Made by a program: the position numbers and the translations under genes
In this document: one piece after another, positions 19,990 through 26,969 of the stretch
How the letters are laid out: every line of letters begins with the position of its first letter
How positions within the stretch are numbered: the stretch's first letter is position 1
From: Cognaticolwellia sediminilitoris
Lineage (GTDB): Bacteria > Pseudomonadota > Gammaproteobacteria > Enterobacterales > Alteromonadaceae
DNA length: 64,000 nucleotides
Assembly (NCBI GenBank): GCA_002104535.1
Contig: NBOG01000004.1
Span: 62,001-126,000, forward strand
Reading direction: 5' to 3'
Notes under the pieces: generated by a model
What the model saw: the letters and a program-made list of their open reading frames with translations, nothing else
What the model was told of the DNA's origin: nothing
Databases searched by the model: none

Positions 19990-20265
19990 CTAAGCAAACA
20001 AATGACGCGCTTTAGGATTTTTCTCTAAATATTTAACAATATAAGAGCACTTAGCGACCGCTTTTTTATTATCTTTTTTAATTTGTTGTAATACATCTTC
20101 AAGTAATGTTTTTGCAAGACCTTTACCGGCAAGTGCTTCAGGGACAATAGTATGGGTTAAATGCATATGTCCATTTTGATCGTCGTAAGTAATATAAGCA
20201 ATATGACCATCAATGTGATATTCATATTGGCTTGCTGATTCGTTATGGATAAGACTGTGAGACAT
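19990..20265 (-). CDS. Small GNAT-type acetyltransferase (YidJ/YjdJ-like)
   Basis: The 91-aa protein is of the short single-domain GCN5-related kind. It reads IAYITYDDQNGHMHLTHTIVPEALAGKGLAKTLLEDVLQ, where the GKGLAKTLL segment fits the acetyl-CoA phosphate-binding loop. The end, KCSYIVKYLEKNPKARHLFA, is typical of this subgroup. Substrate unknown. It is divergent from the cbpA-type gene; the intergenic region holds a palindrome that could affect both. Confidence 0.85.
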   Translation of the reverse strand: MSHSLIHNESASQYEYHIDGHIAYITYDDQNGHMHLTHTIVPEALAGKGLAKTLLEDVLQQIKKDNKKAVAKCSYIVKYLEKNPKARHLFA

Positions 20266-20321: not shown

Positions 20322-20337
20322 TGTCACATTAATGACA
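20322..20337. promoter_or_regulatory. Crp/Fnr-type palindrome upstream of cbpA
   Basis: TGTCACATTAATGACA has half-sites TGTCA and TGACA 6 bp apart. It is centred about 28.5 bp before a perfect TATAAT (20358-20363). That places it near -41.5, the class II activator position. The same motif occurs before dnaK. Confidence 0.65.
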
Positions 20338-20357
20338 TTTAGTTAGATTTATTCATT

Positions 20358-20363
20358 TATAAT
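20358..20363 (+). promoter_or_regulatory. -10 box of the cbpA-type gene
   Basis: TATAAT without a good -35 hexamer at 17 bp. The palindrome at 20322-20337 occupies that place, which suggests activator dependence. Confidence 0.6.
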
Positions 20364-20495
20364 AACGTCATTTATTCAGGCGATTAAACAGGAAGAATGC
20401 CTAGGTGAGTTGCTTGAGTTTTTTAAATCAGCCTATATTAGCCAAAACAGTAACGACATTCGTTAACAATACGTTCATTTACACAGGAGGTTACT

Positions 20496-21434
20496 GTGAA
20501 TTATAAAGATTATTATAAAATTATGGACGTTGATAAAACCGCGTCCCAAGATGATATTAAAAAGTCATACCGTAAATTAGCCCGTAAGTTTCATCCAGAT
20601 GTAAGTAAAGAAAAAAACGCCGAAAGCAAATTCAAAGATATTAACGAAGCGTATGAAGTATTACGCGATAAAGAAAAGCGAGCAGCTTACGATCAACTAG
20701 GCAGTAACTGGCAAGGTGGACAATCTGGCTTTTCACCACCACCTAATTGGCAAGACCAATTTAATCAAGGCAATGGCAGTTTCAATAGCTCAGGTCAAGG
20801 CGATTACAGTGACTTTTTTGAATCCTTATTTGGTAGTGGTTTTGGCGCAAACCAACGTTCTACAGGATCTCGCCAACGTTATAGTAAAGGTGAAGATAGT
20901 CAGGCCAAAATAACAATTGATCTGCAAGACAGCTTCACCGGTGCATCGCGTAACATAACAATGCGAGAGCAAGTTGCTGGTCCTCACGGACAAATGCAAG
21001 CGAAAAATCGCACCTTAAAAATTAACATCCCAAAAGGAATTAAAGCAGGTCAAAAAATCCGCCTGCAAAAGCAAGGTGAACCTGGGTTTTCCGGTGGGGA
21101 AAATGGCGATTTATATATTGAGGTTGGTTTTAATCCTAACCCTTTATATAGCGTTGAAGGCTCAGATATCACCACAGAGCTTACGATTAGTCCTTGGCAA
21201 GCAGCTTTAGGTGATAAGGTTAAAGTGCCAACTCCGACAGGCACGGTAGACTTAACCTTACCTAAATTGACCAGCAGTGGCAGTAAAATGCGCTTAAAAG
21301 GCAGAGGACTTCCAGGCAAAGTTCCAGGAGACTTTTTTGTTAAGTTGAAAATCGCATTTCCAACAGGTTTAAGCGATGAAGAACAATCACTTTATCAACA
21401 GTTAAAAGAGATTGAAGAGAAAAGAAAGTTTTAA
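20496..21434 (+). CDS. cbpA: CbpA-type DnaJ co-chaperone
   Basis: The protein is 312 aa. A J domain lies at residues 1-70 with the HPD motif (KFHPDVSK). A Gly/Phe-rich linker runs from about 72 to 130. No zinc-finger repeats are present. The C-terminal substrate domain follows (INIPKGIKAGQKIRLQKQG, GDLYIEV). This matches CbpA rather than DnaJ. Such proteins deliver clients to DnaK and stimulate its ATPase. The GTG start is well supported by AGGAGG five bases upstream. It shares a promoter palindrome with the nearby second dnaK, suggesting joint control. Confidence 0.92.
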   Translation: MNYKDYYKIMDVDKTASQDDIKKSYRKLARKFHPDVSKEKNAESKFKDINEAYEVLRDKEKRAAYDQLGSNWQGGQSGFSPPPNWQDQFNQGNGSFNSSGQGDYSDFFESLFGSGFGANQRSTGSRQRYSKGEDSQAKITIDLQDSFTGASRNITMREQVAGPHGQMQAKNRTLKINIPKGIKAGQKIRLQKQGEPGFSGGENGDLYIEVGFNPNPLYSVEGSDITTELTISPWQAALGDKVKVPTPTGTVDLTLPKLTSSGSKMRLKGRGLPGKVPGDFFVKLKIAFPTGLSDEEQSLYQQLKEIEEKRKF

Positions 21435-21756
21435 GTTCTAAGCGGTCAGCTGTCAGTACTGATAATTAGTTTTTTCTTTGGGGTTTGTGTTTTGCTTTTA
21501 CTGATAGCTCAAAACTGAAAGCTTACAGCTAAGGAACAGTTTTAAGTTTGAAGCTGTCAGCTGTCAGCAACTGATAGTTAGTTTTTGCTTTGGGGCTTGT
21601 TTTTGCTTTTTACTGAAAGCTCAAAACTGACAGCTTACAGCTAAGTAACAGCTTTAAGTTCGAAGCGGTCAGCTGTCAGTAACTGATGTTTAGTTTTTGC
21701 TTTGGGCTTGTTTTGCTTTTTACTGATAGCTCAAAACTGAAAGCTTACAGCTAATC
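21429..21756. repeat. Three tandem ~110-bp intergenic repeats
   Basis: Units start near 21429, 21540 and 21651, with about 90% identity by eye. Each begins TTTAAGTTC/T and contains GTCAGCTGTCAG. Each ends with an inverted copy (CTGAAAGCTTACAGCTAA), so each can fold into a long stem-loop. A shorter copy lies at about 22899-22988. There is no coding content. Confidence 0.85.
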
Positions 21757-21780
21757 CAGCTGTAAGCTTAGCGAGGATAA

Positions 21781-22665
21781 TTAAACGCTCAACACTTTAC
21801 GCTCAGCTGAGTCCGCTTTCTTTACTTCTGCATAACTCCCTTTCCAGACATACAGAATGATTAAAGTAATTATACTTATTAATAATGAAAATATACTCGC
21901 TTCAGGTCCGAAAGCTCCACCACTTAGCCATTCTTCCATTGGATGAAAAATTGGCGTAAACCAACCCGATTGTTCATGTCCACTAACACCAAAGCCTGCA
22001 ATATTACCTTGTGACCAATTCCAGCCTAAATGAAGGCCTATAGGTAGTGCAAGGCTGCGCGTTTTAATAAAGGCTAAACCAAAGATTAATGAACCTAAAA
22101 ACAAATCTAAAGTTGCTACTACTTGGGTTTCGCCTTGCATGCCTGGATTACCCCAATGTCCGAAGGCAAACAAGGATGCGATCAACAATTGTGCCCCCCA
22201 AACACCAATCCCATCGATTAATCGCTGAAATATAAAGCCGCGATGAAGTATTTCCTCAGACAAAGCGCCGATAAAAAACAAATAGAATCCGTAGCTTAAT
22301 ATTTGCAAGCTTCTGTCATTATTTAGCTCGAAAGTAACGCCACCAAAAGCCCAGATAAAACCAACAACCCCAAGCATCATCACTAAACCTAGAAAAACTC
22401 CGCTAAAAAGTTGCTTAAACCAACGTAAATTTAACCCCATCCCTACATCTGAGAGCGACTTTTTTCGCAATTTTAGGCATATAAAAGTAACTAATAGCAG
22501 CAGTAAAAATGACACCGGCTCAAGCATTTGCTCTTTGAAACCTAGCTGGCTCAATCCTTGTTTTATCGGTTTATAGATAGGACGCGTTAATGCCACTAAA
22601 CCAATAAAAATTAAAATCCACCAACCATTTCGTATCTGATTATTATTATAAAAAATGTTTTTCAT
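21781..22665 (-). CDS. CPBP-family intramembrane glutamic endopeptidase
   Basis: The 294-aa protein has about eight hydrophobic segments. The CPBP (Abi/CAAX-protease) motifs are all readable: EEILHRGFIFQRL with E137-E138 and Arg, FAFGHWG with the second-motif His, and GLHLGWNW with the third. Relatives include Rce1-type prenyl proteases and bacteriocin-immunity proteins; most bacterial members lack a known substrate. It is flanked by repeat elements on both sides and has no clear operon partner. Confidence 0.88.
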   Translation of the reverse strand: MKNIFYNNNQIRNGWWILIFIGLVALTRPIYKPIKQGLSQLGFKEQMLEPVSFLLLLLVTFICLKLRKKSLSDVGMGLNLRWFKQLFSGVFLGLVMMLGVVGFIWAFGGVTFELNNDRSLQILSYGFYLFFIGALSEEILHRGFIFQRLIDGIGVWGAQLLIASLFAFGHWGNPGMQGETQVVATLDLFLGSLIFGLAFIKTRSLALPIGLHLGWNWSQGNIAGFGVSGHEQSGWFTPIFHPMEEWLSGGAFGPEASIFSLLISIITLIILYVWKGSYAEVKKADSAERKVLSV

Positions 22666-22985
22666 TTGCTGCCTTTATTAAGTTATGAATTGGAAACATA
22701 AATTCAAGTAGTGTTATTAAGGAACACTTAAAGCGAGATTGCTTTATTCTCACCTTCAGCAATACATGTACCAGAACAATAATCATAACAATTTCAGTTG
22801 GTTAATGATTTACATTTGTAATTAAAGACATCAAGGATAGATAAAGTGGTTTTTTTAACGATAAAGTAACGAAACAGAAAATATGAGCTAATAAAGCTAA
22901 GTAACAGTTTTAAGTTCTAAGCGGTCAGCTGTCAGTAACTGATGTTTAGTTTTCTTACTGACAGCTTTAAACTGACAGCTTAAAG
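22666..22985. other. Intergenic region with a fourth repeat copy
   Basis: This is 320 bp between two minus-strand genes. The last 90 bp (about 22899-22988) are a shortened copy of the 110-bp repeat, reaching the Crp/Fnr gene's stop. The remainder holds the CPBP gene's promoter region and nothing else I recognise. Confidence 0.6.
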
Positions 22986-22988
22986 CTA
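22899..22988. repeat. Shortened copy of the 110-bp repeat
   Basis: It begins AAGTAACAGTTTTAAGTTC and shares GCGGTCAGCTGTCAGTAACT with the 21.4-21.8 kb units. Its central AT-rich part is deleted. The arms still pair (CTGACAGCTTAAAGCT end). Confidence 0.8.
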
Positions 22989-23759
22989 TTTTTTGGAGGT
23001 CGGCATTAAAGGCGCGTTGGGTAAAGTTTCAGTGAATTTTGCCGCTTGCTCTAATGCCTCTAAATCTTTAACAATAAGTTGGTTACGCTTTTTATCAAGC
23101 GTGCCTGCTTTTTTCCATAGCTGTAATTGTTTGTTGATCACTTGTCTAACAGAGCCGGCCATGCGTGCTAAGGTGTCGTCGTTTAAACCATTAACCAAAT
23201 GATGCTGATGCTCTTCTTCTTTTCTGCCGGTGTAAAATTTGATTTTATTAATATGGTTTAAAATAATACGGCTTAAACGGGTCGGAACGTCATTTAAAAT
23301 GTGACTACTGGCTTGTTGTTCTTTTTCGCGCATTTTTTGCGCTAAATATGGCATAAACTGTTGATTAAATTCTGGATAAGTCCATAACCAATGGCGCATA
23401 GTATCAAGCTTCACCGACAGTAACTTTACGGTAGTCAGCGGCGAGATAATCACATCGTGAGGCTGGTTATCTAACAACACCATTAAATCAAAACAGTCGC
23501 CAGCATAAAGCATATCTAAAGTAGCTTCTCGGCCGGTTTCTTGATTACTTTGTTTTATTTCTAACTGGCCATCAATAACCACAAAAAAACGCTGCATTAA
23601 TATATCTGAATTAATGTAGTCGCCTTTGCGCCATTCATTTAGCTGAAACTCTTGTTGAAAATCTTCAATTAACTTGGCAGGCAAATCCGCAAAAATATTG
23701 GCCTGTTTAACCAGTACTGGATTGGCTTTTTGAGGTAAATGATTTACATCTCTATTCAT
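22986..23759 (-). CDS. Crp/Fnr-family transcriptional regulator
   Basis: The protein is 257 aa. A cyclic-nucleotide-binding-type beta-roll (about 20-130) is joined to a long dimer helix and a helix-turn-helix. There is no FNR-type Cys cluster. In the recognition helix, SVRQVINKQL aligns with CSRETVGRIL of CRP, so Arg180 is kept while Glu181 becomes Gln and Arg185 becomes Lys. As I recall, CooA also has Arg-Gln here and prefers TGTCA half-sites. Palindromes with that half-site lie before dnaK and cbpA, so this protein is their likely regulator. The ligand is unknown. Confidence 0.88.
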   Translation of the reverse strand: MNRDVNHLPQKANPVLVKQANIFADLPAKLIEDFQQEFQLNEWRKGDYINSDILMQRFFVVIDGQLEIKQSNQETGREATLDMLYAGDCFDLMVLLDNQPHDVIISPLTTVKLLSVKLDTMRHWLWTYPEFNQQFMPYLAQKMREKEQQASSHILNDVPTRLSRIILNHINKIKFYTGRKEEEHQHHLVNGLNDDTLARMAGSVRQVINKQLQLWKKAGTLDKKRNQLIVKDLEALEQAAKFTETLPNAPLMPTSKK

Positions 23760-23937
23760 AGTTAATAAAACTTTAGCAACACAATAGGTAAGTGTTTTTA
23801 TTCTACCTAGTTGCCCAGATATAGCAAAAACTAATCGCTAATACTGATAAATACCTGAGATATTTAAAACATTTAATCCATTGATTTTTATATTTAAAAT
23901 TTACTATGGCAAAAATAATTATAAGTTTTGTCATAAG

Positions 23938-23953
23938 TGTCACATTTGTGACA
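23938..23953. promoter_or_regulatory. Crp/Fnr-type palindrome upstream of dnaK
   Basis: TGTCACATTTGTGACA shares its first nine bases with the cbpA site. Its centre lies 29.5 bp before TATGAT (23975-23980), again near -41.5. It sits between the Crp/Fnr gene and its probable target. Confidence 0.7.
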
Positions 23954-23974
23954 GAAGCATAGGTTTAGCTTACG

Positions 23975-23980
23975 TATGAT
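23975..23980 (+). promoter_or_regulatory. -10 box of the second dnaK
   Basis: TATGAT has one mismatch to consensus and no -35 hexamer. It is placed 21 bp after the end of the palindrome, as at cbpA (20 bp). Confidence 0.55.
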
Positions 23981-24122: not shown

Positions 24123-26014
24123 ATGACTAAAACTATTGGTATTGATTTAGGTACAACAAACTCATGTGTTTCAGTAATGGAAGGCGCGTAGCAAAAATCA
24201 TTGAAAATGCTGAAGGTAGCAGAACCACGCCATCGGTTGTTGCTTATGCCGACAATGAAACATTAGCGGGTCAACCAGCAAAAAGACAATCGGTGACAAA
24301 CTCCGAAAATACTTTATTTGCTATTAAACGTTTAATCGGCCGTAAATATGACGATAAAGAAGTGCAAAAAGACATTAAGTTAGCACCCTATAAAATAGTT
24401 AAAGCAGACAACGGTGACGCTTGGGTTGAAGTAAACGGCAAGAAAATATCGCCACAAGAAGTATCAGCACAATTGCTTCGTAAATTGAAAAAAGATGCTG
24501 AAGCTTATTTAGGTGAAAAAGTAACAGAAGCTGTGATTACTGTACCGGCTTACTTTAACGACTCACAACGCCAAGCAACAAAAGATGCAGGTAAAATTGC
24601 GGGCCTTAATGTTAAACGTATTATCAACGAGCCAACAGCAGCAGCACTCGCTTACGGCGTAGACAAAAGCAGTAAAGCAGACCAAAAAGTAGCAGTTTAC
24701 GATTTAGGTGGTGGTACTTTCGATGTCTCGATTATTGAAATCGCCAACGTTGATGGTGAAAAACAATTTGAAGTATTAGCGACTAATGGAGATACATTTT
24801 TAGGCGGGGAAGACTTTGATTTGCGCCTAATTAACTATCTTGCTGACGAGTTCAAAAAAGACAGTGGCATTGATGTAAAACAAGATCCATTAGCACTGCA
24901 GCGTATTAAGGAAGCCGCTGAAAAAGCTAAAATAGAGTTATCATCAGCGCTACAAACTGACGTCAACTTGCCGTATGTAACAGCAGATGCCAGTGGTCCT
25001 AAGCATTTAAATGTTTCGGTAACTCGCGCTAAACTAGAGTCGTTAGTCGATGATTTAGTTAAAAGTACCATGGCACCGTGTGAACAAGCGTTAAAAGACG
25101 CCGGTTTAAGCAAAGCTGATATTAGCGAAGTTATTTTGGTGGGTGGTCAAACACGTATGCCAAAAGTACAAGAGGCAGTAAAAGCTTTCTTCGGGAAAGA
25201 GCCACGAAAAGATGTTAACCCCGATGAAGCTGTTGCCATGGGTGCGGCTATACAAGCGGGTGTGTTGTCAGGAACAGTAGGTGATGTGTTATTGCTAGAT
25301 GTAACGCCACTTTCACTGGGTATTGAAACGTTAGGTGGTGTAATGACCAAACTTATTGAGAAAAATACCACGATACCAACACGAGCATCAGAGGTGTTTT
25401 CAACCGCGGAAGACAACCAAGCAGCTGTTACGGTGCATGTGTTGCAAGGTCAACGCGAAATGGCAACAGACAATAAATCGTTAGGACAGTTTAACTTAAC
25501 AGATATTGCCCAAGGTCCTCGCGGCTCGGTTCAAGTTGAAGTGACTTTTGATATTGACGCTGATGGTATTTTAAATGTTTCAGCTAAAGACAAAGCCACC
25601 GGTAAGGAGCAAAGTATCACGATTACTGCATCAAGTGGTTTAAGTGAAGATGAAATTAATCGCATGGTCAACGATGCTGAGCTACACGCTAATGAAGACA
25701 AGCAAAAGCGTGAGTTAGTTGAGCAACGTAACCAAGCAGATCAATTAATTAATACTGTACAAACGTCAATGGAGAGCTTTGCAGATGAACAAAAAGCTGA
25801 ACTTAATAGCTTAATCGAGCAACTTAAAATGGCTGTTAACGGTAATGACAAAGCCGCGATTACAATGCGACAAACAGCATTACAAGAAGCTTACAGCAAA
25901 ATGATGCAAGCATCACAAGCACAGTCGCAGCAAGCAGACCAACAGCATGTTAACACTGAAGCAAGTAATGATGATGTTATCGATGCAGACTTTGAAGAAG
26001 TTAGTAACGGTTAA
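24123..26014 (+). pseudogene. dnaK: Second DnaK (Hsp70), one-base frameshift near codon 22
   Basis: The ATG at 24123 has a good ribosome site and encodes [22 protein letters not shown], then TAG at 24189-24191. The rest of a full DnaK reads in another frame from [15 protein letters not shown] on. Adding one G at 24183-24188 gives [14 protein letters not shown] and a normal protein of about 630 aa. All other Hsp70 marks are intact: [26 protein letters not shown], the substrate domain and the ending [10 protein letters not shown] restart at 24164 would lack the phosphate-1 loop and be inactive. It is either a recent mutation or a sequence error. It is not next to grpE/dnaJ, so it is probably an accessory copy. 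Confidence 0.88.
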
Positions 26015-26150: not shown

Positions 26151-26969
26151 ATGAAAAATATTCTAATTGTTGCTGAAAGCGAAAAAAACACAAAATGCAT
26201 GATGGAAAAGGCCCTACGATTCTCTCCTGAAGTCATTCAGGTTGTATATTTTGAAAATAGTAAAAGTAGTATTGCCACTATTCAAACGGCACTACAAAGT
26301 ATCACCAAAGACCAATGTCGAGCGGAGGTGATAATTAGTGTAGGGAATACCTTAAAAGAAAAAACGCAAGCATTAACTAAAGTAGTCGAAAATAACAAAG
26401 CTGAGATGATTTTCATACATAGACCTAACAGGGGTGCTGAAGAGCAGGATTTTTCCTTGATAAAAGCTGTTTTAAAAATCTCAACTTGTACAAAAGTTTT
26501 ATTATCAAACGATAAATCATGGCCAGAAGGCATAAAGGCTTTAGGTACACTCGACCTGTCAGATGACAACCCAGTGCAAAGCTTATTAAACGATAGGGTT
26601 ATCCAAACTACCGCTGATTTAGCAGATGCGATACAAGCAGAAGTTTCGTTCTTAAGCGTATCGGCGATATCTAAAATAAGTAAAGAATTAGTACTAACAT
26701 CACCTTCAGAGGTCATGGCAATAAAAGGAAAAGCAACAAAAGAAAAATTAGACTTTACGATTAAAGCAAAAGCATCACAACTCACGTTCTCAAGTCATGT
26801 CTCAGCAGGTAATCCTGCGGTTGAAATCGCGAGAGTATCTCGAAAGCTTAATTCGAATGTAGTGATTATAGGCAATGTTGGTAGAACCGGTATTAAGGGA
26901 CTAATTGTCGGTAATACCGCTGAAAAAATCCTACACCGATTAACTACTGATGCCCTAATAATCAAGTAA
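26151..26969 (+). CDS. Tandem universal stress protein
   Basis: The protein is 272 aa with two Usp folds. The first (1-125) is degenerate and lacks a nucleotide motif. The second ends in VVIIGNVGRTGIKGLIVGNTAEKILHRLTTDALIIK, matching the G-2x-G-9x-G-(S/T) ATP-binding pattern. The layout resembles UspE but it is a separate gene from the UspE at 43.6 kb. It starts 137 bp after dnaK with AAGGAAA as ribosome site. Co-expression with the chaperones is likely. Role: stress survival, mechanism unknown. Confidence 0.88.
   Translation: MKNILIVAESEKNTKCMMEKALRFSPEVIQVVYFENSKSSIATIQTALQSITKDQCRAEVIISVGNTLKEKTQALTKVVENNKAEMIFIHRPNRGAEEQDFSLIKAVLKISTCTKVLLSNDKSWPEGIKALGTLDLSDDNPVQSLLNDRVIQTTADLADAIQAEVSFLSVSAISKISKELVLTSPSEVMAIKGKATKEKLDFTIKAKASQLTFSSHVSAGNPAVEIARVSRKLNSNVVIIGNVGRTGIKGLIVGNTAEKILHRLTTDALIIK

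Follow-up and report, generated by a model that had tools for sequence, protein, structure and literature searches.

Closest described systems

The control of chaperone genes in proteobacteria is mostly described, in general and in the available part of PMC545781, as depending on sigma-32 and HrcA. These systems (sigma-32 and HrcA/CIRCE) also have dnaK-, clpB- and hsp20-type genes as targets, but they work with a sigma factor or a repressor, not with a Crp/Fnr protein, and through other DNA elements. The locus analysed here belongs to Cognaticolwellia sediminilitoris and lies in a stretch of 64,000 nucleotides (nt) of contig NBOG01000004.1, which is called the window below. It contains a gene for a Crp/Fnr-family protein of 257 amino acids (aa), two copies of the palindrome TGTCA-N6-TGACA, and genes for a CbpA-like DnaJ co-chaperone (cbpA) and a second DnaK (dnaK2). 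Comparison with other genomes suggests, with a probability of roughly 0.8, that this 257-aa protein acts as a class II activator of Crp/Fnr type dedicated to an accessory proteostasis regulon.

The protein is a member of the Crp/Fnr superfamily, since the families cNMP_binding and HTH_Crp_2 (32.6 bits each) both score above their gathering scores. Its matches in the Protein Data Bank (PDB) extend over its whole length on the Crp fold, as in cyclic AMP (cAMP)-CRP and the CRP of Mycobacterium tuberculosis (3d0s), with which it also shares a palindrome of N6 form and, as is known for CRP, the class II geometry. Structure prediction was poor (mean predicted local distance difference test score, pLDDT, of 60.6, below 50 in the DNA-binding half). 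In CRP, the pocket for the cAMP phosphate uses a Glu and an Arg. Aligned with the M. tuberculosis protein, the Glu is replaced by Leu92 (hydrophobic in the relatives) and the Arg by His101, which is invariant in 27 aligned regulators; the Glu of the recognition helix is Gln, and the site is TGTCA instead of TGTGA. In FNR, a set of cysteines holds a 4Fe-4S cluster, and no cysteine is invariant in the same 27 regulators. With the pocket rebuilt and no invariant cysteine, neither the usual cAMP mode nor an FNR-type cluster is therefore expected.

The best PDB match of the helix-turn-helix (HTH) part is CooA (2fmy, E 0.0013), which has Arg-Gln at the corresponding position of the helix, in agreement with the initial annotation of this DNA. 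That annotation also stated that CooA reads TGTCA, which is right in part: the CooA site is a 16-bp (base pair) palindrome that begins with TGTC, but the consensus given in the available part of PMC545781 is TGTCGGCNNGCCGACA, with the carbon monoxide (CO) dehydrogenase (coo) genes as targets, whereas here the half-site is TGTCA and 72 of 75 sites stand at chaperone genes. RedB, the "redox brake" of Rhodobacter capsulatus, is another Crp/Fnr protein and is said to repress dnaK directly (PMC9603517, available part). Unlike the case described here, its motif is nonpalindromic, AT-rich and 12 bp long, and its 115 chromatin immunoprecipitation (ChIP) peaks are mainly related to energy metabolism, according to the accessible portion of PMC9603854. 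A literature search for a Crp/Fnr chaperone regulon or a TGTCA site of this kind found none, with a wording that in part probably missed the spelling "Crp/Fnr". By the features compared, the predicted regulator is neither CRP nor FNR, and by its predicted targets it is not CooA.

Co-inheritance of site, regulator and chaperone genes

The initial annotation had reported two near-identical 16-bp palindromes, with the Crp/Fnr gene between them and the DnaJ-like and DnaK-like genes beside it. This observation is confirmed: TGTCACATTAATGACA and TGTCACATTTGTGACA are exact and all the positions are correct (Table 1). Counted in the window only, the motif does not clearly exceed chance, with 4 matches against 2.2 expected when one mismatch is allowed and 16 of 100 shuffles reaching 4. 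The whole genome has six exact TGTCA-N6-TGACA sites versus 1 for the backwards control; four of them fall inside open reading frames (ORFs, of 101, 553, 210 and 696 aa) and were set aside as chance matches, TGTCACATTAATGACA and TGTCACATTTGTGACA being the only intergenic ones. The case for the motif draws its strength from conservation.

A panel of 118 relatives, including the window's own genome, was searched for the regulator. Matches were obtained in 34 of these, 17 of which (own genome counted) have orthologs with at least 68% identity, while the remaining Crp/Fnr-like matches have 19-39%. The symmetric site form TGTCAYANNTRTGACA is present in 16 of the 17 regulator genomes and in 2 of the 101 others (G031 and G073); the latter is chance level, because the backwards control appears in 6 of 118 genomes. 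The 17th regulator genome (G056) carries TGTCACAAAAGTGACA instead, and TGTCA-N6-TGACA is found between regulator and dnaK2 in all 17. The initial annotation had named a lack of such co-occurrence as a result that would refute it, and its idea withstood this test.

A DnaK search at E 1e-200 separated the genomes in the same way: those with two genes are precisely the 17 that have the regulator, 99 of the remainder have one, and two have none. The second match in G010 covers just residues 10-537. Four regulator-less genomes of the same genus (G006, 66% complete, G013, G015 and G016) each contain a single DnaK and lack the symmetric site. CbpA orthologs (at least 67% identity) are present in 16 of the 17 regulator genomes, and the exact site lies upstream in 14 of the 15 with an N-terminal match. 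The 16th (G003) is interrupted, and the site precedes its N-terminal piece; about 1.4 kb separate this piece from the rest (L037:8870-11250). The site is kept even where cbpA is on a different contig from the regulator (G007, G012) or about 8 kb away (G011). On the other hand, none of nine other CbpA relatives has a site upstream, two of them being second copies in regulator genomes.

Sites and predicted target genes in other genera

A contig scan gave 50 loci; it used two peptide patterns, one of them within the recognition helix, and relatives with another helix may be missed. Group 1 (28 loci) comprises Colwellia, Cognaticolwellia, Pseudocolwellia, Paraglaciecola and related metagenome-assembled genomes (MAGs), and group 2 (22 loci) relatives of C. 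psychrerythraea and C. piezophila, Methylomonas, Methylococcaceae MAGs, methanotrophic symbionts of mussels and other gammaproteobacterial MAGs. Cultured Colwellia and Paraglaciecola are among the carriers of the module.

The spacing of the site is strict in both groups. At N6 there were 35 sites in group 1, spread over 27 of its 28 loci, and 26 in group 2, spread over 20 of its 22 loci, with 0 or 1 at each of N3-N5 and N7-N10, and the everted and backwards patterns were absent at N6 from the loci of both groups. When all half-sites were scored without a preset motif, TGTCA ranked first at N6 in both sets with an Arg-Gln helix: it was counted 16 times in the 10 loci of one set, where the other spacings average 0.11, and 21 times in the 16 loci of the other, where they average 0.22. 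The ordinary CRP site TGTGA-N6-TCACA was tried and rejected, with 0 occurrences in group 1 and 1 in group 2. The FNR site TTGAT-N4-ATCAA was rejected as well, its places being scattered and unrelated in both groups: 6 occurrences in 4 loci of group 1 (0-7 at other spacings) and 5 in 5 loci of group 2 (0-2 at other spacings, a slight excess).

In a set of 56 loci, 75 sites were located in 54 loci. For 72 of them, a gene for DnaK2, CbpA, ClpB or Hsp20 starts within 500 bp downstream in the correct direction, so the target content is of heat-shock type, with chaperone and disaggregase genes; group 2 sites precede hsp20, clpB or dnaK genes. The exceptions are one site without a neighbour found (L174 at 172), one before a 607-aa ORF (L183 at 5046) and one before the regulator itself (L184 at 6852). 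It could be argued that this conservation is phylogenetic inertia, with recently shared genes bringing their promoters along and no selection on the site, given that the regulators of group 1 have 68-94% identity and almost identical sites. Nevertheless, the group 2 regulators have only 53-60% identity (except one partial match at 62%), and the N6 cores, the flanks and the targets (clpB, hsp20) differ while the half-sites and the distance to the -10 box are kept. Furthermore, the 75 sites represent 34 distinct 16-mers, and no two sites have identical surroundings. Inertia is the least probable of the explanations considered here.

The targets of group 2 are exemplified by locus L182, where family scans identified ClpB (1503 bits), PsiE and three HSP20 proteins, together with a MerR-type CbpM (52.6 bits, under the CbpM cut-off of 138) and a CbpA-like protein (294 bits, under the cut-off of 403). 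The LHR/TLQ heat-resistance islands are also accessory proteostasis sets with Hsp20, a Clp ATPase, PsiE and YfdX, and they are not known to contain a second DnaK with a Crp/Fnr regulator. The ClpB of L182 differs from the Clp ATPases of these islands, as it exceeds the ClpB cut-off and stays far under those of ClpK and ClpG.

Twelve group 2 genomes were searched whole for DnaK. All eight DnaK2-type genes carry the site at an estimated 112-192 bp upstream, and three of these genes (L251, L252 and L253) are on contigs other than that of the regulator. No site was found at 11 of the 12 other DnaKs, the exception being the sole DnaK seen in G493 (L256). Upstream of this gene, the palindrome adjoins CTTGAAA, which resembles the -35 element of sigma-32. 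In an unrooted DnaK tree, a single branch with support 100/99 separates the 32 rows of DnaK2 from all others; the tree has 58 rows, 55 of them different.

The recognition helix and the site

A class-wide draw of 369 genomes yielded 24 more genomes with homologs, from which 27 loci were fetched. At least one site is present in 8 of the 11 loci whose regulator has Arg-Gln; those lacking it are L228, L223, whose contig measures 4 kb, and L222, which shares its contig with L186. None of the 16 loci of Arg-Val or Arg-Pro homologs has the site, and no partner motif of these homologs stood out among N6 and N4 palindromes. The Arg-Gln helix and the TGTCA site thus appear to be linked, as a correlation.

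With this, another possibility can be weighed: a different transcription factor would read the palindrome, and the Crp/Fnr gene would be just a linked neighbour. Linkage by itself cannot prove that regulator and site are a pair. However, cbpA and dnaK2 genes distant from the regulator retain the sites, regulator-less genomes are at the chance level given above, and the sites have the 16-bp N6 Crp form and go with the Arg-Gln helix. A second factor is quite improbable on these grounds, if a little less so than inertia.

Regarding the neighbourhood of the distant homologs, those with Arg-Gln are found near genes for acetate kinase, a phosphoenolpyruvate (PEP)-utilising enzyme, a cation P-type ATPase, Usp and YfdX, which may hint at an energy or redox signal. 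YfdX is a protein of heat-resistance islands, and in L234 (10093-11098) a palindrome lies about 80 bp before its gene. Two Arg-Val-type Crp/Fnr homologs are in tandem in L227, L229, L232, L235 and L236, the second one being in two pieces in L236. No link was seen between the distant homologs and the Burkholderia lxa locus, whose Anr-type regulator is named for anoxic survival in the available part of PMC9104464, and this parallel was rejected.

Promoter geometry

In a class II Crp-type promoter the centre of the site is near -41.5, which corresponds to 29.5 bp upstream of the first base of the -10 box. The distances of 28.5 and 29.5 bp given in the initial annotation for the two window promoters are correct. 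Across the loci, -10 boxes were called as the best TATAAT match with T-A----T required. Among the 72 chaperone-facing sites, the distance is 29.5 bp in 62, 28.5 bp in 5 and another value in 5. Hence, judging by predicted starts, these sites would have the class II geometry, kept across genera. No preferred -10 place was found on the 37 regulator-facing or the 10 GNAT-facing sides, and therefore the predicted activation points to the chaperone genes.

The same sites could also be used by the regulator as a repressor, leaving the chaperone promoters under stress. Crp/Fnr repressors exist, and since the sites overlap the -35 position, RNA polymerase could be blocked by the protein bound there. 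Nonetheless, repression does not need an exact distance to the -10 box, yet that distance is 29.5 bp in 62 of 72 sites. Moreover, inspection by eye showed no good -35 at normal spacing for either window promoter, and such promoters would need an activator. Repression seems unlikely, although it is the most plausible of the three alternatives to activation.

Features of the window

The features of the locus are collected in Table 1. The GNAT and Usp genes had been described in the initial annotation as lying alongside the chaperone genes. The GNAT gene is indeed present in 11 of 16 relative loci, whereas no Usp match was obtained across these 16, so that the latter is not a conserved neighbour.

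Table 1. Predicted elements and genes of the locus, with positions in the window.
Feature	Position	Strand	Evidence or remark
Small GNAT acetyltransferase gene, divergent from cbpA, possible target	19990-20265	-	Pfam Acetyltransf_CG
Palindrome TGTCACATTAATGACA in the cbpA/GNAT promoter region, predicted to bind the regulator	20322-20337	no strand	Exact site also upstream of cbpA orthologs
cbpA -10 box TATAAT	20358-20363	+	First base 28.5 bp from site centre
cbpA-like DnaJ co-chaperone gene, predicted target	20496-21434	+	Pfam DnaJ and DnaJ_C
Crp/Fnr-family regulator gene, 257 aa	22986-23759	-	Pfam cNMP_binding and HTH_Crp_2
Recognition helix of the regulator, SVRQVINKQLQL (Arg205-Gln206)	23118-23153	-	Alignments
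Palindrome TGTCACATTTGTGACA, between regulator and dnaK2	23938-23953	no strand	Position kept in relatives
dnaK2 -10 box TATGAT	23975-23980	+	First base 29.5 bp from site centre
Second dnaK gene (dnaK2), predicted target	24123-26014	+	DnaK match
Universal stress protein gene after dnaK2	26151-26969	+	Pfam Usp

The CbpA-like protein of the window obtains 260 bits with the best CbpA model, under the 403-bit cut-off of that model. The dnaK2 product and the canonical DnaK of this genome share 69% identity. The dnaK2 gene starts at ATG 24123, and in this assembly the frame is lost after 22 codons (24123-24190), which removes the DLGTTNS stretch and is the reason why the listed dnaK ORF starts only at 24164. 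This stretch is in frame in the other 16 regulator genomes, and the break may reflect either a mistake in the assembly or a recent disruption of the gene. Repeats of 62 nt and 44 nt, with four copies each, were also observed at 21413-21754 and 22892-22989; three copies are near-tandem after cbpA, with a spacing of about 111 nt, and one precedes the 3' end of the regulator gene.

Proposed model

According to the proposed model, a dimer of the regulator would bind TGTCA-N6-TGACA centred near -41.5, beside RNA polymerase, and would switch on promoters with a good -10 box and no good -35. In the window genome the regulon would consist of dnaK2 and cbpA, perhaps together with the regulator gene and the divergent GNAT gene. 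The regulon of methanotrophs and other Gammaproteobacteria would add clpB-psiE and an hsp20-hsp20-hsp20-cbpA-cbpM cluster.

Several observations weigh against this model. Many of the genomes are closely related and their counts are not independent, which makes the Fisher values for the -10 distances look more certain than they are, and the Arg-Gln and Arg-Val/Arg-Pro homologs differ in descent too. One regulator genome (G053) has no cbpA ortholog, and the cbpA of G014 has a two-mismatch site only. Four of the 12 group 2 genomes (G486, G488, G493 and G494, which are MAGs of unstated completeness) have the regulator and no DnaK2-type gene, and the dnaK2 of the window genome is itself frameshifted. 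The comparative data nonetheless show the conservation of the site, the spacing of the promoters, the identity of the targets, the co-inheritance and the Arg-Gln/TGTCA link, and the interpretation in the initial annotation is supported by them and is largely right.

We lean, with less assurance than for the activator itself, towards the view that this is an old and unrecognised branch of proteostasis control. In it, a Crp/Fnr subfamily, probably tuned by a small molecule or redox state and not by temperature, would run its own chaperones (DnaK2, CbpA-CbpM, ClpB and Hsp20s) in parallel to sigma-32 in marine psychrophiles and methanotrophs. Crp/Fnr control is not usually associated with chaperones. 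The module is small and well bounded, and it offers a comparative case of one residue of a recognition helix going with one DNA site. If the model is true, some bacteria would tie a whole set of chaperones to a signal of metabolism or redox state by means of a one-component Crp/Fnr activator that has its own DNA site and its own DnaK.

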